64,000 nt of DNA from Acidobacteriaceae bacterium. Lineage in GTDB: Bacteria > Acidobacteriota > Terriglobia > Terriglobales > Acidobacteriaceae. The notes beneath the pieces were generated by a model. The model searched no databases. It was not told the DNA's origin and worked only from the letters and a program-made list of their open reading frames with translations. Location: the NCBI GenBank assembly GCA_003131585.1, contig PKVW01000014.1, positions 1 to 64,000 on the forward strand, written 5' to 3'. A program made the translations under genes and the position numbers. Every line of letters starts with the position of its first letter. Positions within the stretch are counted from its first letter, which is position 1. Positions 1 through 13,518 of this stretch are shown here, one piece after another.

Positions 1-354
1 ATGGACATTCAAAGCATAGTGGCACAACTTAGGCAGGAAGCTAGTCGTATCGAACACGCAATTGCAGCTCTCGCGGGACTAGGTTCCCGGCCCGCACGGC
101 GTGGTCGTCCGCCTAAGAGGAGCCAGGCTAAGCCAGCGAGTACCAAGAAACGTCGCCGGATGAGCCCGGCAGCACGTGCCAGAATCGGGGCTGCAAAGAA
201 GGCCTGGTGGGCAAAGCAGAAAGGCAAACCTGGGCGCAAAAAAGGTACGGCCGTCTCCAAGAAGACCACCGGTCGCAAGCCGATGAGTGCAGCCATGCGG
301 AAGAAATTGTCGGCGATGATGAAGGCAAGGTGGGCGGAGAGGAAGAAGGCGTAG
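1..354 (+). CDS. Small basic AT-hook / histone-H1-like protein
   Basis: 117 aa and extremely Lys/Arg/Ala-rich. Residues 1-28 look helical. Residues 33-40 read RRGRPPKR, an AT-hook with the GRP core that binds the minor groove of AT-rich DNA. Two related Trp-containing basic repeats follow, near residues 54-73 (MSPAARARIGAAKKAWW) and 95-113 (MSAAMRKKLSAMMKARW), joined by KPGRKKG-type linkers. I infer a nucleoid-associated or DNA-compacting role; no enzyme motif is visible. The ATG is the first base of the window, so the upstream signals cannot be seen and an earlier start cannot be excluded. Confidence 0.7.
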   Translation: MDIQSIVAQLRQEASRIEHAIAALAGLGSRPARRGRPPKRSQAKPASTKKRRRMSPAARARIGAAKKAWWAKQKGKPGRKKGTAVSKKTTGRKPMSAAMRKKLSAMMKARWAERKKA

Positions 355-635
355 GTTATCGTCGTCTGTGCGAGGTCTAGAAACAAACCCGACAAATGGC
401 GGGGCGGATTAATACGAATCCGTTTCGATGCTCGTAAGGCGAACCGCCACCACGACCCGCTGACAGTCTGAAAACTGACCACTTACGCCGTCTCCGTGTT
501 TTGTTCTCTGCAAGTCTCTTGGCCTGGGCTGGGTGGTTGGCCATTCGGAAGGTTTCCTCCTCGGTCGCGATGTACCTCGCCTTCGCAAACGGCACCTTAC
601 GATCGACCTATAATTGTTTTCGTCAGGAGATCACT
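355..635. other. Intergenic region, no convincing gene
   Basis: About 280 bases between the basic protein and iorA. A 72-codon minus-strand frame (377-595) is open here, but it has no recognisable family, no clear ribosome binding site and a composition unlike its neighbours. I found no RNA gene. The only clear signal is the iorA ribosome binding site AGGAGA at 625-630. Confidence 0.4.
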
Positions 636-1112
636 ATGGAAGCGATTGCCGTCATCGTGAACGGTAAGCAACAGCGCATTACAGCGCCGCCGGACGAACC
701 TTTGTTATGGGTTTTGCGTGACCAGTTGCAACTTACCGGAACCAAGTATGGCTGCGGCGAAGGGCAGTGCGGCGCCTGCACCGTGCTGCTGGCGGGCAGG
801 CCTGTGCGCTCTTGCCGGACTTTGGTAAGCGCGACGCTGGGAAAGAAAATTACGACCATCGAAGGATTAGAGCAGAACGGCCGGCTTCATCCCGTGCAGG
901 AGGCTTTTCTCCGTGTGGAGGCCTTCGAATGCGGCTACTGCACTTCGGGGATGATTCTGTCGGCGGTGGCCTTGCTGAATCAGAATCCGTCGCCGAGCGA
1001 CGATCAAATCGGCGATTTCATGAATGGAAATGTCTGCCGCTGCTGTACCTATCCTCGAATTCTTGAGGCCGTGCAGCAAGCGGCCACCAGAGGCAAGGAG
1101 CACGCGCGATGA
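636..1112 (+). CDS. iorA: Isoquinoline 1-oxidoreductase-type [2Fe-2S] small subunit
   Basis: 158 aa. The small subunit of a molybdenum hydroxylase (xanthine dehydrogenase/aldehyde oxidase family) passes electrons from the Mo centre through two [2Fe-2S] clusters. The plant-ferredoxin-like N-terminal half has Cys40, Cys45, Cys48 and Cys60 (CGEGQCGAC...C). The helical C-terminal half has Cys99, Cys102, Cys134 and Cys136 (CGYC...CRC). The ATG at 636 was chosen over an in-frame start at 501 because AGGAGA lies 5 bases upstream and the homologous domain begins at once. The stop overlaps the next start (ATGA), so it is translationally coupled to the large subunit. The actual substrate is not predictable. 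Confidence 0.9.
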   Translation: MEAIAVIVNGKQQRITAPPDEPLLWVLRDQLQLTGTKYGCGEGQCGACTVLLAGRPVRSCRTLVSATLGKKITTIEGLEQNGRLHPVQEAFLRVEAFECGYCTSGMILSAVALLNQNPSPSDDQIGDFMNGNVCRCCTYPRILEAVQQAATRGKEHAR

Positions 1113-3295
1113 GCCCGCCCGCCAGCCCCGTCGATGCGGAAATCTTGCGCGAATTCGAGCTGGAAAGCCTGCGGCAGGCCTCCACCCCGAAACTCGGGTA
1201 CGGCTTCGAATTGCAGCGGCGCGAGTTTTTCAAGCTGCTGGGCGGCGGCCTGCTGGTGGGGATGTGCGTATCCGCCTTGGCGCAAGAGTCGGGCGGCGGA
1301 GGGGGTCGCGAAAGCGAAGAGGATTTGCCCAAATCATTGGCGGCGTGGCTGCATGTTGCCGAGAATGGCGAAGTGACCGTGTACACGGGCAAGGTGGAGG
1401 TTGGCCAGAACATACGGACTTCGCTGAGCCAGCAAGTGGCCGAGGAGCTGCGCGTACCGATGGAATCGATTCAGTTGGTGATGGCCGACACCGCTCTCAC
1501 TCCATTCGACATGGGCACATTCGGCAGCCGCACTACGCCCATCATGGGTCCGCAACTTCGCAACGTTGCCGCCACCGCGCGCGAAGCCCTCATCTCGCTC
1601 GCCGCCGCGCGCTGGCACATTGCTCCGGACACACTGGTTGCCGCCGAGGGCAAGATCACCGATTCGCGCACCAGGCGGTCCATCACTTACGGAGAACTCA
1701 GTCGAGGGCAAGAACTGCTGACGCTTATTGGCGAAGGCCCGTCTTTGCTTTCTCCGAAGGACTGGAAAATTGCGGGGACTTCAGCGCCCAAGGTCGATGG
1801 ACGGGCTTTCGTGACCGGGCAGCATAAATATACCCCGGACATGGCGCGCCCCGGAATGCTCGTGGGCAAAGTCGTGCGGCCCGCGGCGTTCAAGGCTTCG
1901 CTGACTTCTTTTGACGCCGCGGAAGCGAAGAAAATTCCAGCGGTGACGGTGGTTCACGACGGTGATTTTGTCGGCGTTGCGGCCCCTGACGAGCCTACCG
2001 CCGCACGCGCGGTCAAAGCGCTTCAGGCCCAGTGGAAGGCGGCGCCGCAGACGTCGGATGCCACGTTATTCGCCGACCTGAGAAAGCCTCCGGCTGAATC
2101 AACTGAAACTCACGGGGACTCCGGCCATGTCGCCGGCTCGGTGGAACAGGGGCTAGCCTCCGCTGACAAGACGCTGGCGCAAACCTATACGGTCGCCTAT
2201 ATCGCCCACGCGCCCTTGGAACCGCGCGCCGCTCTAGCGGAATGGACGGATGGAAAGCTGACGGTGTGGACCGGTACGCAGCGTCCATTTGCGGTGCGCG
2301 ATGAACTGGCGCAGGCTTTCCGGCTCCCTGCTGCCAGCGTCCGCGTGATCGTTCCCGACACTGGCTCGGCTTACGGCGGAAAGCACACCGGAGAGGCGGC
2401 GGTGGAAGCCGCGCGCCTGGCCAAAGCCGCCGGGAAGCCAGTGAAGCTAGTCTGGACACGCGAAGAAGAGTTTACGTGGGCCTACTTCCGTCCGGCGGGT
2501 GTGATTGATGTGAAGAGCGGTGTTTGCAAAGACGGCACCGTGGTTGCGTGGCAGTTCGACAATTACAACTCAGGCCCCTCGGCCATTCGCACACCCTATA
2601 ACATCGCCAACCAGAAGATTGAATTTCACCCGTCGGATGCCCCTTTGCGGCAGGGTTCTTACCGCGGTCTGGCCGCGACTGCGAATCACTTTGCCCGCGA
2701 AACCCATATGGACGAACTGGCCCATCTGCTGGGCATGGACCCGCTGGAGTTCCGCCTGAAGAACATTGCCGATCCGCGATTGACCGCGGTCTTCCAGGCG
2801 GCCGCACAAAAATTCGGGTGGGGGCGTGAGAGGAACTCGGCCACCCGCGGCTGCGGCATTGCCGGGGGCGTGGAGAAGGGCGGCTACATCGCCGCTTGCG
2901 CCGAAGTAGAGATCGACCCGGGCAGCCGCGAGGTCGAAGTCAGGCGGATTGTCGCAGCCTTCGAATGCGGCGCAATCGTCAATCCGAATGGCTTGCGCAA
3001 CCAGATCATGGGCTCCGTTGTGCAGGGACTGGGCGGCGCGCTGTTTGAAGCGGTCGGCTTCAACGACGGAAAAATTACCAACCCGCATTTCGCGCAATAT
3101 CGGGTGCCGCGCTTTGCGGACACGCCGCGGGTCGAAGTGGAAATGCTCGACCGCAAGGATCTGCCGCCGGCAGGCGCGGGCGAAACTCCGATTGTTGGCG
3201 CCGCCCCGGCCGTAGGAAACGCCATCTTCGCGGCCACCGGAATCCGCTTGCGCTCCCTCCCGCTTGCACCCAATGGGGTTCCGAAAACGAGCTGA
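1109..3295 (+). CDS. iorB: Isoquinoline 1-oxidoreductase-type molybdopterin large subunit, Tat-exported
   Basis: 728 aa, the usual length for IorB-like large subunits, which hydroxylate N-heterocycles or aldehydes at a Mo-cytosine-dinucleotide centre. RR at residues 37-38 (QRREFFKLLGGGLL) followed by a hydrophobic stretch and ALAQ looks like a twin-arginine signal preceded by a long n-region. The C-terminal GAGETPIVGAAPAVGNAIFAA segment carries the conserved Glu of the Mo site. It overlaps iorA by 4 bases. The pair would be co-folded and exported together, since iorA has no leader of its own. No cytochrome subunit or XdhC-type maturation gene is visible nearby. Confidence 0.9.
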   Translation: MSPPASPVDAEILREFELESLRQASTPKLGYGFELQRREFFKLLGGGLLVGMCVSALAQESGGGGGRESEEDLPKSLAAWLHVAENGEVTVYTGKVEVGQNIRTSLSQQVAEELRVPMESIQLVMADTALTPFDMGTFGSRTTPIMGPQLRNVAATAREALISLAAARWHIAPDTLVAAEGKITDSRTRRSITYGELSRGQELLTLIGEGPSLLSPKDWKIAGTSAPKVDGRAFVTGQHKYTPDMARPGMLVGKVVRPAAFKASLTSFDAAEAKKIPAVTVVHDGDFVGVAAPDEPTAARAVKALQAQWKAAPQTSDATLFADLRKPPAESTETHGDSGHVAGSVEQGLASADKTLAQTYTVAYIAHAPLEPRAALAEWTDGKLTVWTGTQRPFAVRDELAQAFRLPAASVRVIVPDTGSAYGGKHTGEAAVEAARLAKAAGKPVKLVWTREEEFTWAYFRPAGVIDVKSGVCKDGTVVAWQFDNYNSGPSAIRTPYNIANQKIEFHPSDAPLRQGSYRGLAATANHFARETHMDELAHLLGMDPLEFRLKNIADPRLTAVFQAAAQKFGWGRERNSATRGCGIAGGVEKGGYIAACAEVEIDPGSREVEVRRIVAAFECGAIVNPNGLRNQIMGSVVQGLGGALFEAVGFNDGKITNPHFAQYRVPRFADTPRVEVEMLDRKDLPPAGAGETPIVGAAPAVGNAIFAATGIRLRSLPLAPNGVPKTS

Positions 3296-3315
3296 GGCGT
3301 TTCTTTTCGCGAAGA

Positions 3316-3703
3316 CTACCCGTCAAGGGGCACAAGATGCGCCGAGATCCATTCGTGAAGCAGGGCGAAGCGGAACTTGCCTTCGGACATGTTTTTCATT
3401 ATGAAGTCGAGGGCAGCTTTGCTGGTAACGTTCAGATCGAATCCGTTTACGAGGAGAAACGTGTGAGCGGCGGCAAAGCCGACGCGTTTGTTGCCGTCGA
3501 GAAAGGCGTGATTGTTGACCAGCGACTCCAGCAGCGCCCGCAGCCTCCTCGCTCAGGTCGTTGTAGTAACCCGTCTGAGGACGGAAAACCGCCGCCTCCA
3601 ACGCGCCCCGATTAAGCATCCCGTGCTCGCCGCCGTATTCCTCAATCTGGTGATGGTGAATGGCGACGACTTCAGCCACCGTCAGGTAGGCGCGCTCGGC
3701 CAT
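3316..3703 (-). pseudogene. doc: Doc/Fic-like death-on-curing toxin, single-base frameshift
   Basis: The reading frame starts as a Doc protein (YLTVAEVV..IHHHQIEEYGGEHGML), but after residue ~54 it runs into unrelated sequence. In the next frame the family resumes with RALLESLVNNHAFLDGNKRVGF, which holds the Fic/Doc motif HxFxDGNKR, and runs to a stop at 3316-3318. Removing one G from the GGG at 3537-3539 (CCC on the plus strand) restores EEAAALLES and a complete ~125 aa toxin. Doc proteins phosphorylate EF-Tu. The start shares one base with the antitoxin stop (TAATG). Either the toxin is inactivated or the assembly has a homopolymer error. Confidence 0.8.
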
Positions 3704-3933
3704 TACTTGGCTAGCCGCTTGTATAACTCACGATACTTTTCGTTGGAGCGGCGATAGGCGGCCATCACCTCCGGCCTTACCATGCGCTGCGAAGGGACTA
3801 CGTTGTGCAGGTAATGCTCCAGCGCCCGTTCCAGCACAAACCGCTGCGACTGCCCGTTCTCCTTGGCCACGGAGACGAGTTCCGCATAAAGCTTGGCATC
3901 AATTTCCGGAGCGATCTTGACGGAACGCGGCAT
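3703..3933 (-). CDS. Antitoxin of the Doc-like pair
   Basis: 76 aa, small and charged. MPRSVKIAPEIDAKLYAELV resembles the N-terminal strand and helix of ribbon-helix-helix antitoxins; the C-terminal half (YRRSNEKYRELYKRLAK) is basic and helical and would wrap the toxin. It precedes the Doc-like gene with a one-base TAATG overlap, the standard antitoxin-first layout. It probably represses its own promoter. The gene appears intact although its toxin partner is frameshifted. The exact antitoxin family (Phd or CopG type) is uncertain. Confidence 0.75.
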   Translation of the reverse strand: MPRSVKIAPEIDAKLYAELVSVAKENGQSQRFVLERALEHYLHNVVPSQRMVRPEVMAAYRRSNEKYRELYKRLAK

Positions 3934-3950
3934 GGGTGCCTCTTGGATAG

Positions 3951-3979
3951 ATTCTAGCTGCGTGGACTGGCGCGATCAA
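3951..3979 (-). promoter_or_regulatory. Promoter of the Phd/Doc-like operon
   Basis: On the minus strand TTGATC (3979-3974) and TAGAAT (3956-3951) are separated by exactly 17 bases, close to the sigma-70 consensus, 18 bases upstream of the antitoxin ATG. The -10 region lies in a small palindrome (TAGATTCTA on the plus strand), and TCTAGA occurs again upstream near 3986. These could be antitoxin operators, which is an inference. Confidence 0.6.
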
Positions 3980-4098
3980 GATAAATCTAGAAATTGCTAC
4001 AGCTCGAACTGGATTGGGACAGCCACGACGGTGACTTCGGTACTCTCGCAGTTGGTTCTCCACGGCAATACGCTAGCTCCAAGACAAGGAGGAATCGC

Positions 4099-4380
4099 AT
4101 GAGTGGCGCCAAGCGGTTGATGGCAGCGATAGAGAGGAAGCGAGGGAAGGCCGTCGCCCTCGCCCTCAAGGCCCGTGTCTTGAAACGTTGCGAATACCAC
4201 GAAGGGGTGTTCGAGGGTGACGAAGAAATCGTGGAAGCGTACAAGCTTGGGAACGCGAGGTTCGAGAAGGACTCGCTCGGCAAGATTTTCGACAGTCGCA
4301 GAGAAATGACCGACTACATCAAAGAGGGAGTAGAAGATGCGGCCTTAGAATGCGGGCAATGCGCGGAGATGCGGGACTAA
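4099..4380 (+). CDS. Hypothetical protein, 93 aa
   Basis: Start chosen at ATG 4099 because a near-perfect AAGGAGG (4086-4092) lies 6 bases upstream; an in-frame upstream start at 3994 has none. The protein is charged and probably helical (MSGAKRLMAAIERKRGKAVALALKARVLKRC), with several Cys residues, including a C-terminal CGQC. I recognise no family. It sits in the accessory islet between two toxin-antitoxin modules, and its composition looks less GC-rich than the surrounding core genes. A terminator-like hairpin follows at 4441-4460. Confidence 0.65.
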   Translation: MSGAKRLMAAIERKRGKAVALALKARVLKRCEYHEGVFEGDEEIVEAYKLGNARFEKDSLGKIFDSRREMTDYIKEGVEDAALECGQCAEMRD

Positions 4381-4440
4381 CGGAGGGCCGTGCGGGTGAT
4401 CGCGCTCCCGGTGGGTAAGACGCCATATGAAGGCGTCATC

Positions 4441-4460
4441 AAGCCCGCAATCGGGCTTTT
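4441..4460 (+). terminator. Rho-independent terminator-like hairpin
   Basis: AAGCCCG (4441-4447), loop CAAT, CGGGCTT (4452-4458), ending in TTTT (4457-4460). It would end the transcript of the 93-aa gene. It lies only 5 bases before the ribosome binding site of the next gene, so it may act as an attenuator for that gene. Confidence 0.55.
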
Positions 4461-4477
4461 GGGCGAAGGAGGACGTT

Positions 4478-4972
4478 ATGAAGAAGCTAATCATCATCCT
4501 CGGGCTGCTGATGGCGAGTGCGATTGGGCAGAATGGGTTTACTACCGTCATACCAGACCGACCTGTCAGCTTTTTTCAGGTCAACGACTCCTCTGCTTGG
4601 GTGAAAGGTCATTGGGTCGGCTCCGATATGACAGGGCCGTCAACGTCCTTAATCTTCTGCGAACATTCAACAAAGAAATGCACGGATAGCACCGCCAACA
4701 TTTACGTCTCCGGGGATACATTCGCCCTGGATAGCAGTCAGGACGATTACACAGTCGAGCGTTGGGACAAACGAGAAATCGTTGCTAGCAACGTTGGCGG
4801 AATCTGCCGTGTCCGCGACGTCATCAAGTTCGATCGCGTACAGAAGCGAGTCTACTGGATGCAAACATTGTCTGAACCAATTGATGACCTCCCAAAGATT
4901 AATCAAGACATGTGCAAACTTGTTGGTATGCACCTCGAACTAAAAGACAGTACAGAATGGAGGAAAAGGTAG
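4478..4972 (+). CDS. Hypothetical secreted protein, 164 aa
   Basis: The N-terminus MKKLIIILGLLMASAIGQ is a classic Sec signal peptide. Start at ATG 4478 is supported by AAGGAGG at 4466-4472. The mature part has four or more Cys residues (FCEHSTKKC, GICRV, DMCKL) that could form disulphides, plus polar beta-rich segments. No family recognised. It is less GC-rich than the core genes and lies in the accessory islet, so recent acquisition is likely. Confidence 0.7.
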   Translation: MKKLIIILGLLMASAIGQNGFTTVIPDRPVSFFQVNDSSAWVKGHWVGSDMTGPSTSLIFCEHSTKKCTDSTANIYVSGDTFALDSSQDDYTVERWDKREIVASNVGGICRVRDVIKFDRVQKRVYWMQTLSEPIDDLPKINQDMCKLVGMHLELKDSTEWRKR

Positions 4973-4980
4973 TCTCACCC

Positions 4981-5059
4981 CTGCAACAAGTCCACCGGCG
5001 CCGTCACATCGTGCACGCGGAAATACTTGGCCAGCGCCGGATACCTCCGGGCCACGGCC
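4981..5059 (-). repeat. Duplicated 3' end of thyX (remnant)
   Basis: 79 bases align without gaps to 5618-5696, the 3' end of the intact thyX, with about four differences. Read on the minus strand it still encodes ARRYPALAKYFRVHDVTAP followed by VDLLQG and a stop. The in-repeat differences are synonymous; the last codon before the stop differs (Gly for Arg). It abuts the hicA stop codon (5062-5064). This looks like the end of a related thyX allele carried in with the islet and not a decayed copy. Confidence 0.85.
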
Positions 5060-5061
5060 GG

Positions 5062-5277
5062 TTACAAATCCTCCGGCTTCAGTCCGGTGTACTTCGCAAT
5101 CTTCTTCAACGCGACGGGCCCAAGTTCCTCGCCGTCATGCCATGCCCAGGTGTAGTTGAGATATCCGTCCCTTTGAAGTTGCACATGGGAGCCCTTTTTC
5201 TCCGTTCTCGGCTTCCAGTCGATACGGAGCAGGGCCCGGTAAACGCGGATTGCTTTGCTGCTTGGCCACGCATTCAC
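5062..5277 (-). CDS. hicA: HicA-family mRNA interferase toxin
   Basis: 71 aa. The HicA fold binds double-stranded RNA; the catalytic His is in KKGSHVQLQRDG. The C-terminus GPVALKKIAKYTGLKPEDL is typical of the YcfA/HicA family. It starts with GTG at 5277 overlapping the hicB stop (GTGA), so the pair is co-translated. The order here is antitoxin (hicB) first, then toxin. Length and motifs look intact. The stop codon lies at the junction with the thyX 3' remnant, so its 3' boundary is the islet boundary. Confidence 0.85.
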   Translation of the reverse strand: MNAWPSSKAIRVYRALLRIDWKPRTEKKGSHVQLQRDGYLNYTWAWHDGEELGPVALKKIAKYTGLKPEDL

Positions 5278-5498
5278 AAAAAGCGGATGGCTTTCGGGGA
5301 CTTTCTAATTTGCTCGGTTCGATCGGCAATGACTCGAAGCGCGAGAGCGGTGACGTTCACTTCAGCATCCTGCTCGGTCGTTCCATAAGCCATGACGCCG
5401 GGAAGCTCAGGCACCTCGGCCAGCCATCGACCATCATCTTCCCTTTCGAAAACGATGCTGAAGGATTCGCCATCGGGAGGGTGAGGGACGGTTGCCAT
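5274..5498 (-). CDS. hicB: HicB-family antitoxin
   Basis: 74 aa. A partial RNase-H-like HicB fold is shown by FSIVFEREDDGRWLAEVPELPGVMAYG followed by the EQDAEVNVTALALRVIADR helix. It neutralises HicA by binding its active site. This short form has no separate C-terminal DNA-binding domain that I can identify, so repression may need the HicAB complex. The start is supported by GGAGG at 5503-5507, a few bases upstream of ATG 5498. The promoter and a palindromic operator lie just upstream. Confidence 0.85.
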   Translation of the reverse strand: MATVPHPPDGESFSIVFEREDDGRWLAEVPELPGVMAYGTTEQDAEVNVTALALRVIADRTEQIRKSPKAIRFL

Positions 5499-5528
5499 GG
5501 AACCTCCTGCCGCATTCCGGAGAGATTA

Positions 5529-5570
5529 AATCGCCGAAGCGATTATTTGTCTCGCAAAGCTCCAAGTCAA
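5529..5570 (-). promoter_or_regulatory. hicBA promoter with overlapping palindromic operator
   Basis: On the minus strand TTGACT (5570-5565), 17-base spacer, AATAAT (5547-5542). The -10 overlaps a perfect dyad AATCGC-TTCG-GCGATT (plus strand 5529-5544) that covers the probable transcription start. This position fits autorepression by HicB or HicAB. The dyad could alternatively be a weak terminator stem for thyX, but no T-run follows it. Confidence 0.65.
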
Positions 5571-5611
5571 GCTTATTGCGACGACGAGGGAAACAGCAAG
5601 TGTTGCGGAGA

Positions 5612-7312
5612 TTACCTCTGCAGCAAATCCACCGGCGCCGTCACATCGTGCACGCGGAAATACTTGGCCAGCGCGGGATACCTCCGCGCCACGGCCTCAT
5701 ACATCGCATAGGCTACATTGCGGTAGGAAACATGGCCCGCCGGCGTGGTGCGCAGTTCGGAGATGTACACAGCCTCGGCAAAATCCATCTTGAACAGGGC
5801 GCGCTTGCGATAGGCCAGCGGAATCGCGTACTGTGAATTTTCTTCGGCTTCGGGCGCGTTGCGCGCGGCGAGCTTCTCAACCGCCGTTTGCGTGCGCCGC
5901 ATGGCGGCATCGAAACGAGAACGCATGCCGGCATCATCCATGTCGAGCAGCATTTCGTAGCCGTGCTGCGTGGTGAATCCCTGCATCACCTGGATGCAGC
6001 GCCGGTGACGGTGCATGTCGCGGAAGCCGCCCGTATCCATCAAAATGTCGAAGCGGAACTGCTGTCCGGCGCGGAAGCCGCGCAGCATTTCGTCGTGCTT
6101 GCCGCGATGGCGCAGGCCAAGATCGATGATCTCGCGGCGGTATCGCTCGCCCGAAACCTGCAGCGCTTGCCGGACTTGTCTATAGGAGTGGTGGCAGTGC
6201 TCGTAAAGCAAAGTGGTCGCAATCTCAACTTCGAGCGGTTCCTCATCGAGCAGGTCTACGATTGCTTTCGACGGCGCAAGCTGCTCGCTCTTCATCAACT
6301 CGCGCGCAGCCTGCCGCAATTCGCGCCGTGTTTCCATCTCATACGAATTCGGATCGGCGTATTTCACCAGCGTAGGCGCGACTCGGACTTCGTGCAGCAA
6401 TTCCTGCTCGGCCCGCGCGCCCAGTTCCGGACTCAGCTTCCGAATCTCCTCCACCAAGCCCCGCAAAGACTCGGCATTCACGTTGTACGCCGCCGTCGTT
6501 GCCGCCTTCTTCAACGACTCGCCGAGAACTCGAACTTCTTTATGCGTGTGCGAGAGCAGGTGCGCAACCTGGGTTTCAAGGGTCCGCGCGTTGACGATCT
6601 CTCCCAGCGAAGTATTTGTAGCCAGCGGCAACAGGTAGCGCGTGATGTCGAAGGCCCTGGCCTTCAGGGTGCGCTCGTATGCCTCCTGCTTCATCTCGGC
6701 AGGCTTGGGCGTGATGCTGATCAGGTGCTGCGTCATGTGCGCGGAGAGCGCGTCATATTCGGCAAACAGACTATCCAGCGTCTCCCGGTATAGTTTGCGG
6801 GCTTCATCGTCGGCACCGAAGTCGGGCGTATAGTAGCCGCTCTTCTTGAAGTCCTGATAGCGGGTCGAGCGCTCCTGGCCGTCCCAGCGTTGTTCGTCGG
6901 CTAGTTCGATGGCAGCCAGAATCGAGAGCCTCTCGACGGCCAGCGCGATATGCGCCAGGTCGGCAATCGAACGGTGACCGTACTGAAAATAGAAAGTGTT
7001 GAGAAATTTCTCCGCCTTCTGCGCGCTGATTTCGCGCAGCGACTCTTTCATCGAGAGCGAGGAACGCGAGTACTTAGCCATCGCATAGGCCTGGATCTCC
7101 GGCTCAACGCCGTAAACCGCGAAGACTTCGGTGGAAGGCACGTCGTCCCGGCGGTCGTCCCGCAGATCTTGCGGGGCCGAGGAGTTTTCGGCAGCGGAAG
7201 GCCTCTGGGGCGAACGGTGTCCGAGGCCGGCCGAAACCGAATCCGACGTGGATGAATTCTTGCTGGAAGGCTCGGGCATGGTGCTCACTTCGTTCGTCAC
7301 CGTTTCAGGCAT
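5612..7312 (-). CDS. thyX: FAD-dependent thymidylate synthase family, two-domain
   Basis: 566 aa, over twice the length of classical ThyX (~220-250 aa). ThyX makes dTMP from dUMP with methylenetetrahydrofolate, NADPH and FAD. After a low-complexity tail (1-60), the first ThyX-like domain (~62-275) keeps QERSTRYQ (146-153) and NARTLETQVAHLL but lacks RHR. The second (~370-555) has RHR at 435-437 (RDMHRHRRCIQ) and the AIPLAYRKRALFKMDFAEAVYISELR region. The signature RHRx7S is thus not complete in either half. ATG 7312 has no good ribosome binding site; ATG 7279 is an alternative. The last ~80 bases are duplicated at 4981-5059. Confidence 0.8.
   Translation of the reverse strand: MPETVTNEVSTMPEPSSKNSSTSDSVSAGLGHRSPQRPSAAENSSAPQDLRDDRRDDVPSTEVFAVYGVEPEIQAYAMAKYSRSSLSMKESLREISAQKAEKFLNTFYFQYGHRSIADLAHIALAVERLSILAAIELADEQRWDGQERSTRYQDFKKSGYYTPDFGADDEARKLYRETLDSLFAEYDALSAHMTQHLISITPKPAEMKQEAYERTLKARAFDITRYLLPLATNTSLGEIVNARTLETQVAHLLSHTHKEVRVLGESLKKAATTAAYNVNAESLRGLVEEIRKLSPELGARAEQELLHEVRVAPTLVKYADPNSYEMETRRELRQAARELMKSEQLAPSKAIVDLLDEEPLEVEIATTLLYEHCHHSYRQVRQALQVSGERYRREIIDLGLRHRGKHDEMLRGFRAGQQFRFDILMDTGGFRDMHRHRRCIQVMQGFTTQHGYEMLLDMDDAGMRSRFDAAMRRTQTAVEKLAARNAPEAEENSQYAIPLAYRKRALFKMDFAEAVYISELRTTPAGHVSYRNVAYAMYEAVARRYPALAKYFRVHDVTAPVDLLQR
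5618..5696 (-). repeat. thyX 3'-end repeat, intact copy
   Basis: Direct-repeat partner of 4981-5059, inside the intact thyX reading frame. The 558 bases between the two copies contain only hicAB and its promoter. The layout resembles an attL/attR pair at a gene 3' end, but no integrase is present. Confidence 0.8.
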
Positions 7313-7425
7313 GGGAATGTCCGAATGTTAATCGGCGGACGAACAATGCGCAATCCGTTAGGGAAATGATACTGGCGCTGGTGTGGGACACGTTCGACAG
7401 CGCGCCGAATTGAAGCAGCGGCGGG

Positions 7426-7431
7426 TATAAT
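7426..7431 (+). promoter_or_regulatory. Candidate -10 box for fabG
   Basis: A perfect TATAAT, 58 bases before the fabG ATG. No good -35 is seen at 16-18 bases, so this rests on the -10 alone. Confidence 0.4.
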
Positions 7432-7489
7432 TCCACGTTCTGATGTAAAGACTTCTTAATCGAGACTCAAGGAACTCGGGAGAAATCTC

Positions 7490-8233
7490 ATGTCCCTTTC
7501 AGGGCGGGTGGCGTTCGTTACAGGCGCGTCGCAGGGCATTGGGCGAGGCTGCGCGCTGAAGCTCGCCACAACGGGCGCGGCAGTTGCCGTCGCCGCTCGC
7601 AATCAGGAGAAGCTGAACGAACTGGTGCACGAAATCACTGCCGCGGGCGGCAAGGCCGCAGCCTTCGCTCTGGACGTCACCGATGAGGAGCAGGTCAAAT
7701 CCGCGATCAAGGCGGCCATCGCGCAGTTTGGCAAGATCGACATCCTCGTGAACAATGCCGGCATCACCCGTGACCAGCTCGTCCTGCGGATGAAGCGGGC
7801 CGACTGGGATGCCGTGCTGCAAACCAATCTCACCTCGGCGTATCTCTGCATCCAGCAGGTGACCAGTTCCATGCTCAAACAGCGCTGGGGACGCATCATC
7901 AACATCGCCAGCGTCTTCGGCCAGATGGGGCAGGCGGGGCAGGCGAACTACTCCGCGTCGAAAGCCGGGCTGATCGGACTGACGATGGCCATCGCCCGCG
8001 AGCTGGGATCGCGCAACATTACTTGCAACGCCGTGGCCCCGGGCTTCATCGAAACCGCCATGACGGAGACGCTCGGCGACGAGTTCAAGCAGACCGCCGC
8101 CAAACAGATTCCGCTCGGGCGCGTGGGGTCGCCCGGCGATGTGGCCGGTGCTGTGGCCTTTCTCGCTTCGGACGACGCTTCCTACATTACCGGTCACGTG
8201 CTGAATGTGAACGGCGGCATGCTGATGGGGTAG
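7490..8233 (+). CDS. fabG: 3-oxoacyl-[acyl-carrier-protein] reductase
   Basis: 247 aa, the standard FabG length. It reduces 3-oxoacyl-ACP with NADPH in fatty-acid elongation. The Rossmann motif TGASQGIG is at 11-18, then DILVNNAG, the catalytic Ser in INIASVFG, and Tyr/Lys in YSASK. NAVAPGFIETAMTE and the C-terminal GHVLNVNGGMLMG are typical of FabG over other SDRs. A GGGAGAAATCTC stretch before ATG 7490 provides the ribosome binding site. It stands alone here, without other fab genes, so another SDR substrate cannot be excluded. Confidence 0.88.
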   Translation: MSLSGRVAFVTGASQGIGRGCALKLATTGAAVAVAARNQEKLNELVHEITAAGGKAAAFALDVTDEEQVKSAIKAAIAQFGKIDILVNNAGITRDQLVLRMKRADWDAVLQTNLTSAYLCIQQVTSSMLKQRWGRIINIASVFGQMGQAGQANYSASKAGLIGLTMAIARELGSRNITCNAVAPGFIETAMTETLGDEFKQTAAKQIPLGRVGSPGDVAGAVAFLASDDASYITGHVLNVNGGMLMG

Positions 8234-8250
8234 GCCGCAAGAGACTCAAC

Positions 8251-8322
8251 CCCAGGGGGCACAGAGGGAACATGGAGACCGCGCAGAAACTACCGCCGAA
8301 TTCCTCTGTGTCCTCTGTGGTA
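8251..8322. repeat. Inverted word repeat (CCTCTGTG type)
   Basis: The left arm GGCACAGAGGGAA (8259-8271) is nearly complementary to the right arm TTCCTCTGTGTCC (8300-8312), which is followed by a direct partial copy CTCTGTGG. It lies between fabG and the GNAT domain and runs into the first codons of the GNAT frame. Confidence 0.6.
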
Positions 8323-8793
8323 AAGGGTTTTGCGATCACTCAGGCCGAGTCGCCGGCGGAGATCGCGCAGGCGCGCGAATTATTTCTGGAGTACGGGCAG
8401 TCCCTCGGGTTCAGCCTCTGCTTTCAGAACTTCGACAAGGAACTCGCCGGACTGCCGGGCGACTATGCTCCGCCGGAGGGCCGCCTGTTGCTTGTAGAAT
8501 GCGAGGGCCAACTCGCGGGCTGCATCGCGCTCCACAAGTTAGACTTCGCCATCTGCGAGATGAAGCGGCTGTACTTGCGTCCGCAGTTTCGCGGCCAGGG
8601 CCTGGGACGTAGACTGGCCGAGCGAATTATCGCGGAGGGGTGCCAGATCGGCTATCAACGAATGCGCCTTGACACCGTCGAGCCGGTAATGAAAGATGCG
8701 GTTGCAATGTATCGCAAGCTGGGGTTCAGGGAGATCGCGCCCTACCGGGCGAACCCAATTGCGGGCGCGATGTATATGGAGCTGGAATTGTGA
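8272..8793 (+). CDS. GNAT-family N-acetyltransferase
   Basis: 173 aa from ATG 8272. The GNAT fold transfers an acetyl group from acetyl-CoA. Motif A is LRPQFRGQGLGRRLAERII (the R/Q-x-x-G-x-G/A pyrophosphate loop); later AVAMYRKLGFREI is the usual C-terminal motif. The first ~16 codons are encoded by the intergenic word repeat at 8251-8322, so the true start may be GTG 8317 (giving MVKGFAITQAESP). The substrate is unknown; amino acid or small-molecule acetylation is as likely as protein acetylation. It follows fabG by ~40 bases and may be co-transcribed. Confidence 0.8.
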   Translation: METAQKLPPNSSVSSVVKGFAITQAESPAEIAQARELFLEYGQSLGFSLCFQNFDKELAGLPGDYAPPEGRLLLVECEGQLAGCIALHKLDFAICEMKRLYLRPQFRGQGLGRRLAERIIAEGCQIGYQRMRLDTVEPVMKDAVAMYRKLGFREIAPYRANPIAGAMYMELEL

Positions 8794-8844
8794 CTGCGGA
8801 TTGTTCGTGCTTCCGCAACAGCCTCAGCTCGACAGGAGAAAGCC

Positions 8845-9600
8845 ATGAAAAGAATCATCGTCGTTCTGTTCGCCACCTTGTTCACCGCCCTATTCGCTTC
8901 CGCCTGCTTCGCTGCCGATAGCAAAGCCGTCTCCTACAAGAGCGGCGACGAGACCGTGCAGGCCGTGCTCTACACCCCCGCCGGCAAGGGACCATTTCCC
9001 GCCCTCATCGTCATCCATGAGTGGTGGGGCCTGAACGACTGGGTCAAGGATCAAGCCTCGAAGCTGGCCGACCAGGGCTATGTGGCTCTAGCGATTGATT
9101 TATACCGCGGCAAGGTTGCGACCACGCCTGACATGGCCCATGAAATCATGCGTGGAGTCCCGGAAGACCGTGCCAAGCGCGACCTGCACGCGGCCTTGGA
9201 ATTTCTCCAGGCGCAACCCAATGTCAGGAAGGAACGTATCGGCTCGATCGGATGGTGCATGGGCGGAGGCTACTCGCTGGATGTAGCGCTCCAGGAGCCG
9301 ACTCTAGCCGCGACCGTTATTAATTACGGCCATCTTGCCACCGACACCGACACGCTCAAGAAAATCAACGCTCCTATCCTCGGACTGTTCGGCGGCCAGG
9401 ATCATGGCATCACGCCCGACGACGTCCACAAATTCGAGGCGGCCGTGAAGCAGTTGGGCAAGAAGATCGACATTAAGATCTACGACGATGCCGGCCATGC
9501 CTTCGAAAATCCGAATAACAAAGACGGTTACCGCGCCGACGATGCCGCCGACGCGTGGAAACGCACCGTCAGCTTTCTTGCGGAGACCCTGAAAAAGTAG
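8845..9600 (+). CDS. Secreted dienelactone hydrolase family protein
   Basis: 251 aa with a signal peptide (residues 1-23, ending SACFAA, possibly a lipobox-like LFASAC). It has an alpha/beta hydrolase fold with the dienelactone hydrolase triad: nucleophilic Cys in GWCMGGGYS, Asp in GGQDHGI, His in AGHAFEN, plus the HEWWGLND Glu that polarises the Cys in DLH. ATG 8845 follows ACAGGAGAAAGCC. Most such periplasmic homologues have unknown natural substrates, so a role in aromatic-lactone degradation is only one possibility. Confidence 0.87.
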   Translation: MKRIIVVLFATLFTALFASACFAADSKAVSYKSGDETVQAVLYTPAGKGPFPALIVIHEWWGLNDWVKDQASKLADQGYVALAIDLYRGKVATTPDMAHEIMRGVPEDRAKRDLHAALEFLQAQPNVRKERIGSIGWCMGGGYSLDVALQEPTLAATVINYGHLATDTDTLKKINAPILGLFGGQDHGITPDDVHKFEAAVKQLGKKIDIKIYDDAGHAFENPNNKDGYRADDAADAWKRTVSFLAETLKK

Positions 9601-9778
9601 TACCGGGATTACCCAAAAGAACTAACGCGCCGAGCGCCGAGCCCTTGCGGACGCGCCGATTATTTCTTTCACGCTGTCCAAGCGGAACCAGGCCACGCCT
9701 TTTGTCAAGTCATGATAAGAAAGTAATTTCGGATATGGCACGAATTTCCACTTGCCAGAAAATGCCGATCTGGTTACT

Positions 9779-10156
9779 ATGTCGCATCCTGAAATGCTCC
9801 CCCAGATCAACATCGGCCAGACCATCCGAGACTACCGGCTGCAGAGAGGCATGTCTCAGGGAGACATCGAGAAGCGCACCGGTCTGCTGCGCTGCTACTT
9901 GTCGCGCGTAGAGAATGGCGATACCATCCCCTCGCTCGACACGCTGTCGAAAATTGCCGGGGCCATGGAGATCGCGCTCTCGCAGTTCTTCTCCGAATCC
10001 GGCCACAGCAACGGCGCCAAGGGACTGCCGCAACTCTCCGATGACGAAGTCCGATTTCTCAGCCAGGTCCGCCGCTACGCCACCAACCTCAATGACAGTG
10101 ACCGCAAACTGGTCCTGGCGATGGTCAAGAAGATGGCGGCGAATTCGGGGAAGTAG
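9779..10156 (+). CDS. XRE-family HTH transcriptional regulator
   Basis: 125 aa. The lambda-repressor-like HTH lies at about residues 10-65 (IGQTIRDYRLQRGMSQGDIEKRTGLL, then YLSRVENGDTIPSLDTLSKIA). The C-terminal 55 residues (LSDDEVRFLSQVRRYATNLNDSDRKLVLAMVKKMA) are helical and typical of a family of acidobacterial XRE proteins. ATG 9779 was chosen; a TTG at 9752 and ATG 9794 are alternatives. No adjacent target is evident. An inverted repeat follows the stop. Confidence 0.85.
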   Translation: MSHPEMLPQINIGQTIRDYRLQRGMSQGDIEKRTGLLRCYLSRVENGDTIPSLDTLSKIAGAMEIALSQFFSESGHSNGAKGLPQLSDDEVRFLSQVRRYATNLNDSDRKLVLAMVKKMAANSGK

Positions 10157-10303
10157 GCTCTTAGCCTTTAGCTAGTTCCCGCGCTTGGCGCCCGTTGGTA
10201 TTTGCCCAGGCTCTTTATCTTTCTTTTCGTGCAAACGGTCAGCATGGCCGTTGCGATCCGCAAGTCCTTATGGGTTGAGCGAAAGGCTAAGAGCTAATAG
10301 CTG
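10157..10303. repeat. Inverted word repeat (CTTAGC type)
   Basis: GCTCTTAGCCTTT (10157-10169) is perfectly complementary to AAAGGCTAAGAGC (10282-10294). Each arm continues with a diverged copy of the same word (TTTAGCTAG; GCTAATAGC). The arms are ~112 bases apart. It starts immediately after the XRE stop codon. Confidence 0.75.
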
Positions 10304-10399
10304 CCCGCCCCTTACTTTCGTACCATGACCTCCGGTGACCACCGGGCACCTCGCCCCCGCCGCTGCTTCTCAATACACTGTTGACTTGGAGATCCCCGA

Positions 10400-11023
10400 G
10401 TGACCACTGATGAAGAACTGAACGTGCTCGAGACGCAGCTGCGGCGGCTAAAGATCGACTACGAGGTCTACTTCAGCAATCCGACCAAACGGCCGCCCAC
10501 CGACATCGAGTGGAAGGTGCTCTCGCTGCTGCGCAAGTTTTCCGACGGCGGGCGGATGAGCTTCTCCCAACGCTTCCGCTACAACGAAATGGCCCAGCGC
10601 TACGCCATCTACAGCGATTTGTGGCGCAAGAAGTCCCGCATCCGCGAGGAAGGTTACCGCCGGCCGCAGGATGCGCTTCTCGCCGTGCAGGGAGTTCGCC
10701 CGGAAGTTGAGGAACACAAGCCCCACCACAATCCCGTGTATGGTTTGAGCCGCGCCGCAGCCGCGGCGGCGTCATCGCCGCAGCCCTTCACCCTGCACAG
10801 TGTAGATTCAGCCGAGCGCGCACAAGTGGAGCGCCTGTTCAACACTCTGGTCGAGGCCAAAAAGAAGGCGGGAGAAAACGTCTCCGGCAGCCTCGATTCC
10901 TTCTCCACCTTCGTGCAGAAAAAGACCGAACAAATCCGCAAGCAGTACGGCTGCCAGGACGTCGAATACTCCGTCGAACTCACCGACGGGCATGTCAAGT
11001 TGAAGGCCAAGGCGAAAGCTTAA
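10400..11023 (+). CDS. MXAN_5187-C-terminal-like domain protein, hypothetical
   Basis: 207 aa, soluble and strongly helical. MTTDEELNVLETQLRRLKIDYEVYFSNP, then RPPTDIEWKVLSLLRK and FSQRFRYNEMAQRYAIYSDLWRKKSRIREEGYRRP, match what I remember of the myxobacterial MXAN_5187 C-terminal domain (domain name from memory). After an Ala-rich linker, the C-terminal AQVERLFNTLVEAKKKAGENV...KTEQIRKQYGCQDVEYSVELTDGHVKLKAK segment is a second conserved block. The function is unknown; in myxobacteria such domains occur in signalling proteins. Confidence 0.6.
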   Translation: MTTDEELNVLETQLRRLKIDYEVYFSNPTKRPPTDIEWKVLSLLRKFSDGGRMSFSQRFRYNEMAQRYAIYSDLWRKKSRIREEGYRRPQDALLAVQGVRPEVEEHKPHHNPVYGLSRAAAAAASSPQPFTLHSVDSAERAQVERLFNTLVEAKKKAGENVSGSLDSFSTFVQKKTEQIRKQYGCQDVEYSVELTDGHVKLKAKAKA

Positions 11024-11123
11024 GAACCGTCGTTGGTCGTTCGCAACCCAGACCGCTGTTGGCGTAATCGTCTAGTAGCAAACAGTTACCAAATCCAACG
11101 CTATTCTGTATGCTTTAGCGGTT

Positions 11124-11798
11124 ATGAGGATGAAGGAGCTTCGCTGGCTATTCCTAGCGGTTCTCGCGGTCGCTCTCTTATTGAGTTTTATGGCCGAACC
11201 CGTAACGTTTGGCATTTCGCAGCAGTGGACAAACGGCACGTACCGCTTTGCAGGTGGAACGCATCCAGTGGCATTGGCTTTTGCCCTCATCATCGTGGTG
11301 CTTTACCTGCTGCTCATGTTTGCCCCGCCAGCCACGCTCGGAAATCCTTTCCCCGGCGTCTTCCGTAGGCTCGTCGCGTTTTGGTTGGATTTTGTTCTTG
11401 CAATGATGGTCGTGGCCCCCTTTATGGGCGTCCTCCCAACCCTCACAGAGTGGAAGCGCACGGGACAGTTCGAATGGAATTTTGAGCGAACAACCCATGC
11501 GCCCGGTGATGGATGGCTAACCTTGGCGGGACTTACCATCTGTTTTGCTGGGTTAGTCTTCTATTATGCCTTTCCGCTAACCCGTTGCCGACCTTCACCG
11601 GGCGCTTGCATTGCTGGCTACCAAATTGTTCGTGACGATGGGGTCTCAATCAACGCGCGAACGGCGCTCCTGAGAACGCTCCTCGGCTTCCTTGCAGCCT
11701 GTGCAGCCTATCTAGCACCATTCGTTGCTCGCGACCGCAAGAAGGGTAAGTTTTGGCTCGACATGGTTTTTGGAACCAGAGCTTTGACGTTGCGGTAG
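11124..11798 (+). CDS. RDD-family membrane protein
   Basis: 224 aa with about five membrane segments. An N-terminal segment (MRMKELRWLFLAVLAVALLLSF) and a second at ALAFALIIVVLYLLLMFA precede the RDD domain, whose FRRLVAFWLDFVLAMM carries the Arg and Asp that name the family. ACIAGYQIVRDDG and RTLLGFLAACAAYL are the usual later parts, ending with FWLDMVFGTRALTLR. RDD proteins are thought to be transporters or membrane accessory proteins; no substrate can be inferred here. Confidence 0.82.
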   Translation: MRMKELRWLFLAVLAVALLLSFMAEPVTFGISQQWTNGTYRFAGGTHPVALAFALIIVVLYLLLMFAPPATLGNPFPGVFRRLVAFWLDFVLAMMVVAPFMGVLPTLTEWKRTGQFEWNFERTTHAPGDGWLTLAGLTICFAGLVFYYAFPLTRCRPSPGACIAGYQIVRDDGVSINARTALLRTLLGFLAACAAYLAPFVARDRKKGKFWLDMVFGTRALTLR

Positions 11799-11931
11799 GC
11801 ACCTGGCGTGAAATCGCCATTTCACCAGCAGAGGCCGAATTGTTGGATGAATTGCCGCCCATCGACCAGTGACTGATTGCTGATAGAATCTTCGGTCGCT
11901 CCGCGCTCATCCTTCATATCCGAGGCCTCAC

Positions 11932-13518
11932 ATGTCCCGCAGCACCACCCGCATCCAGCGCGCCATCCTAAGCGTCACCGATAAGACCGGCCTCGTCGAC
12001 TTCGCCCGCCAGCTCTCCAGCCTCGGCATCGAACTCATCTCCACCGGAGGCACGGCCAAGCTCTTGCGCGATGCCGGCATCGCGGTCAAAGACATCTCCG
12101 AACTCACCGGCTTTCCTGAAATGCTCGATGGCCGGGTCAAGACTCTGCATCCCAAGGTGCATGGCGGCATCCTGCACCGCCGCGATAATCCCGCCCACAC
12201 CGCCGCCGTCGCCGAGCACGGCATTCAGCCGATTGACATGGTCGTCGTAAATCTTTACGCCTTTGAAAAAACCGCTGCCCGGCCCGGCGTAGCGTTCGAG
12301 GAGTTGATCGAGAACATCGACATCGGCGGGCCGTCCATGATCCGCTCCGCCGCCAAGAATTTTCACGATGTCGCCGTCGTCACATCCCCGGACGACTATC
12401 CTGCCATTGCCGAGGAACTCGCCCGCTCCGGCGGCGCGCTCTCGCTCGAAACCAAGTGGCGGCTGGCGCAGAAGGCCTTCGCTACAACGGCCGCTTATGA
12501 CTCCGCCATCGCCTCGACGCTCGAACGCATCTCTATTCCGGCCGATTTTCATCTGCCGCCTGCGGACGAAGCCTTCCCGCAAACCCTGCGCTTGTCATTC
12601 CAGAAAGCTCTCGACCTGCGCTACGGCGAGAACCCGCACCAGAAGGCCGCGATGTATTCCGACGGCTCCGGCGTGGGGGTCGCCAATGCCCGCCAACTTC
12701 AGGGCAAAGAGCTTTCCTATAACAACATTGTGGACTTGCAAGCCGCCTGGGATCTCGTCCAGGAGTTCAACGAGCACGAATTCGACGAACCCGTCTGCGC
12801 CATCATCAAGCACACCAATCCCTGCGGCACGGCGACCGGTCAAACTCTTGCCGCGGCCTACAAACGAGCTCTGGAATGTGATCCCGTTTCCGCGTTCGGC
12901 GGTGTGATCGGCGTGAACCGTCCCATCGACGGCGACGCGGCAGAAGAGATGCACAAGCTCTTCCTCGAAGTGATCGCCGCCCCCCGGTTCGAGGAGGCCG
13001 CCAAAGCCCGCTTCGCCACCAAGAAGAATCTCCGCCTGGTCGAAGTCGCCGCCGCGCCGCAGAAATGGATTCTCAAACACGTTTCCGGCGGAATCCTCCT
13101 GCAGGACGCCGACTCTCGCACCTTGCGGGATGCCGACCTCAAAGTCGTCACCAAGCGGGCCCCGACGCCCGAAGAGACCCGCGGCCTGCTCTTCGCCTGG
13201 AAGGTCTGCAAGCATGTCAAATCAAACGCCATCGTCTACGCTCGCAATGGACAAACCGTCGGCGTCGGTGCCGGCCAGATGAGCCGAGTCGACTCGGCTA
13301 AACTCGGCGCCATGAAAGCGCAATTGCCGCTGAAAGGAACGGTCGCCGCCTCCGACGCATTCTTTCCATTTCCTGACGGAGTCGAGGAAATTGCCCGGGC
13401 CGGTGCGACTGCCATCATTCAACCCGGAGGATCACAGCGCGATCCCGAGGTCATCGAAGCGGCCGACCGCCTGGGACTCGCAATGCTGTTTACCGGTGTG
13501 CGGCATTTCCGCCACTAG
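11932..13518 (+). CDS. purH: Bifunctional AICAR formyltransferase / IMP cyclohydrolase
   Basis: 528 aa, full length. It catalyses the last two steps of IMP synthesis: formylation of AICAR with 10-formyl-THF, then ring closure. The N-terminal MGS-like cyclohydrolase domain (~6-200) shows [51 protein letters not shown] and [16 protein letters not shown]. The C-terminal AICARFT domain shows [39 protein letters not shown] and DAFFPFPDG. Start ATG 11932. It appears monocistronic. Confidence 0.97.

Follow-up and report, generated by a model that had tools for sequence, protein, structure and literature searches.

How does a toxin-antitoxin (TA) gene pair come to lie between two copies of the end of a conserved gene? 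The question is raised by a 64,000-nt stretch of DNA from a soil acidobacterium (the window: contig PKVW01000014.1 of assembly GCA_003131585.1, positions 1 to 64,000, forward strand), in which a predicted HicAB pair stands directly behind thyX, whose product serves the synthesis of a DNA building block, and is followed, on its far side, by a second copy of the thyX 3′ end. We refer to the copy within the intact gene as the near end, to the copy beyond the pair as the displaced end, and to the inserted unit as an islet. In the genus Candidatus Sulfotelmatobacter (Acidobacteriota) and beyond, this arrangement recurs behind four genes and involves three known TA families as well as an unknown pair. 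We consider it probable, with moderate confidence, that TA modules are captured at the 3′ ends of conserved genes by host homologous recombination, without an integrase.

A displaced thyX end behind a HicAB pair

The islet and its host gene consist of the following features, given with the support for each open reading frame (ORF) or repeat.

5612 to 7312, minus strand: thyX, the host gene of the islet, 566 aa, with two Thy1 stretches (ORF; Pfam Thy1, 100.9 bits)
5612 to 5696, minus strand: near repeat copy, the last 27 codons and stop TAA of the intact thyX (repeat search, codon comparison)
5499 to 5611, minus strand: 113-nt leader from the thyX stop to the hicB start (sequence, ORF coordinates)
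5274 to 5498, minus strand: hicB-like antitoxin ORF, 74 aa (UPF0150, E 5.9e-5, 23.4 bits, below the cut-off of 27.3)
5062 to 5277, minus strand: hicA toxin ORF, 71 aa, overlapping hicB by 4 nt (Pfam PF07927, 33 bits, cut-off 27)
4975 to 5059, minus strand: displaced thyX 3′ end, 27 codons and its own stop TGA (repeat search, codon comparison)

A repeat search over window positions 1-12000 returned a single direct-repeat family, at 4977-5066 and 5614-5703, with 91% identity over 90 nt and a spacing of 637; a blastn E of 1e-31 to 1e-33 sets it far from chance. This family contains the 79-base direct repeats at 4981-5059 and 5618-5696 that a sequence-only reading of the window had described. At 4975-5059, the last 27 thyX codons and the stop are present a second time, and the hicBA pair sits between the copies with both ORFs in thyX orientation. 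As that reading had held, the displaced copy stays in the thyX frame until it reaches a stop of its own (4975-4977, minus strand), and it meets hicA at its stop codon (5062-5064), with a gap of 2 nt. The same reading had called all differences between the copies silent, which is correct for the 79 bases: compared in the thyX frame over 26 codons, they differ at four positions, and 4/4 are silent (GCG>GCC, CCC>CCG, GAT>GAC, and CTG>TTG). It does not hold for the full repeat, as two further changes fall just outside, bringing the near and displaced copies to six differences over 27 codons and the stop. One is AGG>GGG, which replaces Arg with Gly in the last sense codon of thyX, and the other is the stop exchange TAA>TGA, to which the homology extends. 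The copies differ and other metagenome-assembled genomes (MAGs) carry the same arrangement, which rules out an assembly artefact as the source of the window repeat. The window's own assembly (G000) contains one full thyX, and a search of it found no copy of the thyX end beyond these two.

Its domain matches predict that the window pair is a HicAB module, with a HicA domain above the cut-off and a HicB-like partner below it; toxicity and neutralization are likewise predictions. HicA of the window had no NCBIfam or PADLOC match at E 0.01. This pair and the BrnTA and VapBC pairs described below resemble known type II TA modules in gene order, size, and Pfam matches. They are ordinary members of their families, and their placement alone is unusual.

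The window ThyX is of double length and scores 29 bits against an NCBIfam thyX cut-off of 88 bits. Its halves match as separate stretches in G037, G042, G046, and G049, which belong to another family. A phage origin of this thyX was considered and rejected, as a pattern scan of viral contigs yielded no relative of the window ThyX.

Recurrence behind thyX

We examined 45 genomes of the genus, nearly all of them MAGs, and treated a genome as testable when its thyX 3′ end was followed by at least 1.2 kb, which left 36. The downstream sequence was too short in G018, G025, G032, and G067, and no thyX 3′ end was found in G010, G021, G022, G027, and G031. Six of the 36 carry a displaced thyX end: the window genome behind HicAB, G026, G028, G036, and G061 behind BrnTA, and G034 without a pair. 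The remaining 30 have a single thyX end, a comparison made between species. These counts agree with the expectation of the sequence-only reading that relatives without the islet would have one thyX end, and they bear on its question whether the site is a recurrent one. A full second thyX adjoining the first, the mark of a simple tandem duplication, was seen in none of the genus genomes. G016, which was read from contig C137, has another, partial thyX that ends at the edge of a different contig, without a displaced end. An apparent extra case in G067 was rejected as an assembly artefact, with contigs C187 and C160 overlapping at the thyX end.

In G028, the pair has BrnT and CopG-antitoxin domains in Pfam and the brnA stop is followed directly by the displaced thyX end; in the others, its beginning is more decayed. 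We found no second genome with a HicAB pair of the window type behind thyX. A scan of further ThyX loci, of which the best 80 of 534 were kept, gave 70 testable loci and three displaced ends, those of G061, G026, and L242. The last lies in another genus (G283) and reads thyX, a VapB-like ORF below the Pfam cut-off, VapC with a PIN domain, and then a 174-nt displaced thyX end with its stop intact. Across the order, a protein search of 397 genomes, 368 of them with a match, added no displaced end to these cases among the matches listed, at a level that misses decayed ends. Six genomes with two matches and no explanation so far were rechecked, and both matches lay on one contig only in G283, the same case. 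Repeat lengths at thyX are about 55, 82-87, 88-93, 112, and 174 nt.

As a control, a fixed rule was applied to 264 gene ends, taken from 400 kb of G035 and from the window, to find copies within 1.5 kb downstream. Two ends had one, namely the window thyX and one other with the same kind of arrangement. The P value for 6/36 vs. 2/264 (Fisher 5e-5) is optimistic, because the window thyX contributes to both counts and the genomes, being related, are not independent.

Other gene ends and TA loci

Extending the scan to 890 gene ends, from 1.2 Mb and the window, gave six matches, three of which were set aside after inspection as spurious or paralogous. The window's own 47 ends contributed one match and the 843 ends outside it five, two of which are of the displaced-end and islet kind: nrdJ with a pair we call orfA/orfB, and hpf with VapBC. 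An enrichment comparison of 3/6 vs. 5/882 is partly circular, since the window is included and some queries were taken from the matches. The fourth host gene is mqnE, identified by NCBIfam, in G023, where its last 12 codons and stop are repeated beyond a BrnTA pair with silent changes only. The mqnE end is also a TA hotspot, as 8 of 30 genomes have BrnT or HicA in the 1.5 kb that follow (for example, L298 in G000, L288 in G034, L300 in G011, and L295 in G061). At hpf in G014, the displaced end lies 30 nt after the vapC stop.

The nrdJ case came from the gene-end scan, which was blind to gene family. Behind nrdJ, which encodes a class II ribonucleotide reductase, stand orfA (77 aa) and orfB (75 aa), 1 nt apart, and then a displaced nrdJ end. 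This order is found in G035 and G024; G068 has it in decayed form, with a stop inside orfA. The cassette lies at L147 6711-7173 (G035:C2), L330, L331, L335, and others. OrfB occurs at 17 loci in 15 of the 45 genus genomes, with the nrdJ end just upstream at 8 of the 17. Neither protein has a Pfam or PADLOC match. In NCBIfam, OrfB has no match and OrfA has a weak one to a surface-protein motif, below the cut-off (E 0.024). Predicted structures of OrfA (pLDDT 90.5) and OrfB (80.1) gave no confident fold match in the PDB; the predicted fold of OrfA is beta-alpha-beta-beta-beta, and OrfB has weak SH3-like matches. We propose this conserved pair as a candidate addiction module without earlier description.

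Starting from TA genes rather than gene ends, we located 99 distinct BrnT or HicA loci elsewhere in the genus, of which 91 were testable and 8 had flanking direct repeats, compared with 6 of 281 control points (P = 0.008). One of the eight is the mqnE repeat of G023. On inspection, L083, L173, and L181 look like duplicated targets, L066, L071, L090, and L194 resemble dispersed repeats, and L089 is unclear. At the BrnT locus L173 (G024:C510), the duplicated sequence is a gene start (MLAFLTGATGFLGSH..., 1587-1641 and 2298-2351), the displaced copy of which is decayed. At L181, an intergenic stretch of 57 nt is duplicated around the BrnT locus with 98% identity.

Divergence between near and displaced ends

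The differences between paired ends were compared with a null of random substitutions on the near copy. Non-silent changes were rarer than under this null at thyX in the window genome (1 of 6 differences, P = 0.008), G028 (1 of 10, P = 1e-4), G034 (2 of 8, P = 0.003), and G061 (3 of 8, P = 0.03), as well as at mqnE in G023 (0 of 6, P = 2.5e-4). The sole non-silent change in G028 gives the displaced copy the family-consensus Lys. In four of these five, namely G000, G061, G034, and G023, the two copies end in different stop codons, and three of the exchanges are TGA vs. TAG, for which two changes are needed. The nrdJ ends of G035 and G024 are likewise silent-biased (P = 0.013 and 4e-4, respectively). 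In G068, where the frame is broken further up, 6 of 14 differences over 18 codons and the stop are non-silent (P 2e-4). In both G035 and G024, the two nrdJ ends use different codons, TCG and AGC, for the last Ser. Near and displaced ends thus appear from codon comparison to have diverged like the working genes of two lineages, not like a gene and its decaying spare. The sequence-only reading had derived the outer copy from a functional gene, and this pattern bears it out, since both ends resemble those of working genes.

Movement of the islets

The BrnTA islets have been exchanged horizontally. In all six pairs of BrnTA-bearing genomes, third-position identity of BrnTA is 0.81-0.86. By contrast, windows of equal length in recA (for G026-G061 also in thyX) have third-position means of 0.62-0.69 and maxima of 0.67-0.76. 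At fourfold sites, the values are 0.76-0.83 for brnTA vs. 0.57-0.65 for recA. Because islet identity exceeds that of recA and thyX, the BrnTA islets must be younger than the split of their host genes and have moved to the same site. For the nrdJ cassette, identity in the cassette vs. its flank is 0.90 vs. 0.66 between G024 and G026, a strong signal, and 0.68 vs. 0.60 between G035 and G026, a weak one.

How the islets may have entered

With a length of about 0.6 kb, the HicAB and BrnTA islets have the TA pair as their sole content and contain no recombinase. The sequence-only reading had supposed entry without an integrase, and the recurrence of integrase-free islets in relatives supports this. 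In the mechanism we propose, donor DNA would carry a TA module abutting the thyX 3′ end of another lineage and would recombine with the conserved terminal part of the resident thyX, presumably with the help of RecA. If the donor were a small circle from a relative, one crossover would give exactly the product seen in the window. A linear fragment with the thyX body and the displaced end as its arms would give the same product. Either way, the gene would be rebuilt intact and immediately followed by the TA module, beyond which a second gene end would remain. Conserved genes would make good anchors, as their DNA identity may suffice for recombination between species, and where the anchor gene is needed, the survivors would be the cells that rebuild it. 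The two gene ends could then act as homology arms for later donors, by which a TA family would spread between species or be exchanged for another.

A laboratory precedent for such a product exists in E. coli, where 56 of 60 clones gave the diagnostic PCR product of a duplicated lacZ end, according to the portion of PMC3240628 cited here. The same source reports 14 sequenced clones with 109-950 bp duplicated and ascribes them to one crossover with a circle bearing a partial gene end. Homology-assisted illegitimate recombination has also been proposed as a source of small variable segments (as outlined in PMC2884548).

Several observations weigh against capture by homologous recombination at gene ends. 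Our comparisons of filled and empty sites are between species, so the insertion event itself was not observed, and the flank behind the displaced ends does not align right beside the stop with that of empty relatives, L242 included. Scar and TA pair also occur apart. In G034, the displaced thyX end lies behind a 225-nt spacer without TA genes; G024 and G035 have BrnTA remnants at thyX without a displaced end; and at mqnE a displaced end is found in only 1 of 30 genomes, G023, although eight have a TA gene there, which means that TA modules also occupy gene ends without a scar. Nor is a gene 3′ end obligatory, given the gene start at L173 and the intergenic stretch at L181. The hpf case in G014 is imperfect in that an unrelated 202-aa ORF without a Pfam match lies between hpf and vapB, and 3 of the last 15 residues of the displaced end differ. 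Half of the 12 differences between the nrdJ ends of G035 are non-silent (6; P = 0.013), and the nrdJ cassette exceeds its flank in identity in just 2 of 10 pairs. The displaced ends of G026 and G036 at thyX and of G068 at nrdJ are decayed, which indicates that displaced copies are not kept by selection. Finally, a regression and permutation test of whether near ends travel together with islets gave no significant result (P = 0.07 over the 36 genomes of the thyX alignment and 0.32 within the clade).

This last result also bears on which copy came from outside. The sequence-only reading had identified the outer copy as the foreign one, brought in with hicAB, and our data do not favor this. The displaced end of the window is nearest to its own near copy (5/81 differences) and then to G033 (6), while the near copy is nearest to G026 (3 differences); the foreign copy could be either one. 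Windows moved along thyX revealed no clear breakpoint; only over its last 57 nt do G000, G026, and G061 match one another best or nearly best. Nor need the displaced end have arrived together with hicAB. G024 is the sister of the window genome in a FastTree tree of thyX plus, where present, recA (G000 being placed by thyX alone and branch support not examined). This sister retains a remnant of BrnTA at the site, which makes it a serious possibility that in the window lineage HicAB took the place of BrnTA between two thyX ends already present.

Alternative explanations

Restriction-modification (RM) systems are described as inserting with long, variable target duplications on the order of 100 bp (Nobusato et al. 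2000 and Furuta et al. 2010, as represented in the citing papers PMC3874152 and PMC3031569). The islets could have arisen in a similar way, by a transposition-like or break-repair insertion that copied about 80-110 nt, leaving two copies identical at birth, one of which then drifted. The anatomy and repeat lengths fit these published duplications as far as the citing papers describe them, and the duplicated gene start at L173 and intergenic stretch at L181 around BrnT loci would be natural products of such a process. Still, a drifting spare is not expected to show silent-biased divergence and the exchange of one stop for another, as seen at several genes, and we judge this origin unlikely.

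Attachment sites classically lie at the 3′ ends of genes, and there are known elements that restore the gene end. The islets might thus be integrated in trans by the recombinase of a co-resident phage or island, with attachment sites in thyX, mqnE, nrdJ, or hpf, and the ea8.5-related ORF at 3994-4380, 0.6 kb past the displaced end, is in keeping with a phage nearby. The enzyme would have to act on four unrelated gene ends for unrelated TA families, and the repeats at thyX range in length from about 55 nt to 174 nt, which speaks against a fixed site, although a shared core may lie within the last 55 nt. The islets contain no recombinase, and a search of the window genome for tyrosine recombinases (PF00589) gave four matches, none of them on the window contig C33. 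Integration in trans therefore seems to us quite unlikely. A third alternative is that a single ancient BrnTA insertion behind thyX was inherited vertically with losses, and that hicAB later replaced brnTA, so that the displaced end of the window is unrelated to hicAB. All BrnTA cases at thyX in the genus do fall in one 12-genome clade that includes the window genome and G024 with its remnant, and replacement of brnTA by hicAB in the window lineage is possible as part of this history. The BrnTA islets are, nevertheless, far more alike than recA of the same genomes, hence simple descent does not account for them, and VapBC in another genus and the scars at three other genes require separate events. 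We regard one ancient insertion as very unlikely.

A wider form of recombinational capture is that gene-end docking is the general, integrase-free life of TA modules, in which the islet carries the host gene's 3′ end as a homology arm and host recombination is its sole mobility enzyme. We put this forward tentatively and think it possible but doubtful.

Neighboring features

Three further features lie beyond the displaced end in the window.

4427 to 4972, plus strand: convergent ORF, 181 aa, without a Pfam match, its stop 2 nt from the displaced thyX stop
3994 to 4380: ORF with a Lambda ea8.5-related domain (Pfam PF20735, E 1.4e-8)
3323 to 3933, minus strand: two small ORFs, 76 and 126 aa, a second candidate TA islet (no Pfam match)

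The ea8.5-related ORF is a possible phage trace near the islet. Of the small ORFs, the 76-aa one has a weak RelB-like NCBIfam match below the cut-off (E 0.006), and its 126-aa companion resembles a frameshifted Doc by eye. In 11 of the 36 genomes, among them that of the window, the 76-aa ORF is found downstream of thyX, complete or nearly so, which suggests that the interval between thyX and recA is a general hotspot for small inserts. RecA lies further downstream of thyX in 23 of 33 rows, and in 6 of 8 rows of the genus comparison. The window's own assembly yielded no good recA match (best 43% identity, query residues 39-115), perhaps reflecting a gap in the MAG or a rearrangement beside thyX.

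The spacer of G034 (L033) contains a terminator-like hairpin and a stretch that by eye resembles the 3′ end of a tRNA or tmRNA. Searches for RNA elements gave no ARAGORN match in seven loci and no Rfam match above gathering in three, this spacer included. In G028, L032 2457-2526 matches the Rfam nadA family on both strands at 22 bits vs. a gathering value of 37.5, probably because it is a palindrome.

Relation to known systems

Integrase-driven islands are familiar at the 3′ ends of tRNA genes, guaA, and dusA. Islands and islets alike restore the 3′ end of their target gene and leave a displaced end behind, but the islets differ in that no recombinase was found, repeat length varies, several genes are targeted, and the inserts are very small. 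From the laboratory E. coli case, which PMC3240628 presents as a by-product of homology-facilitated illegitimate recombination (HFIR), they share an insert bounded by a duplicated gene end and homologous recombination. There, in the part of the account cited, a laboratory plasmid met the recipient's own lacZ, whereas here natural islets of about 0.6 kb lie between two diverged ends.

The RM systems with long target duplications, as their citing papers portray them, resemble the islets in being small addiction modules without mobility genes, flanked by direct target repeats of about 100 bp. The islets differ in carrying HicAB, BrnTA, VapBC, or an unknown pair and no RM system, and their repeats are mostly the ends of conserved, intact genes with copies that diverged as working genes. 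A further likeness is found at the Helicobacter PabI locus, where RM gene remnants of 78 bp and 88 bp lie on either side of a putative toxin gene, and where a duplication of 1577 bp is attributed to incoming DNA that joined by homology at one junction and without it at the other (per the relevant section of PMC4615327). The PabI remnants, as that section describes them, are those of a replaced RM pair, and ours are second copies of the end of an intact host gene. Among the titles and abstract beginnings listed in a search of the literature, there was no description of gene-end duplication around TA modules. The present arrangement is akin to the insertion of RM systems with long target duplication, with TA modules in their place and with gene ends that have diverged as genes.

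Implications

TA modules pass readily from genome to genome, but how horizontally acquired ones become fixed was described in a 2009 review as not yet understood (in the passage cited from PMC2654758). The scar of entry now seems readable as a TA pair behind a conserved gene, followed by a diverged copy of that gene's end, which opens the question to tests by comparative genomics alone. Docking may explain why TA pairs stand behind conserved genes; thyX and nrdJ, two of the four found here, belong to nucleotide metabolism. If the mechanism is true, displaced ends would permit a scan for new addiction modules that is blind to family, as with orfA/orfB behind nrdJ, and a mode of mobility described for RM systems would extend to TA systems. 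Together, our results suggest that selfish TA pairs enter chromosomes by ordinary recombination at gene ends.

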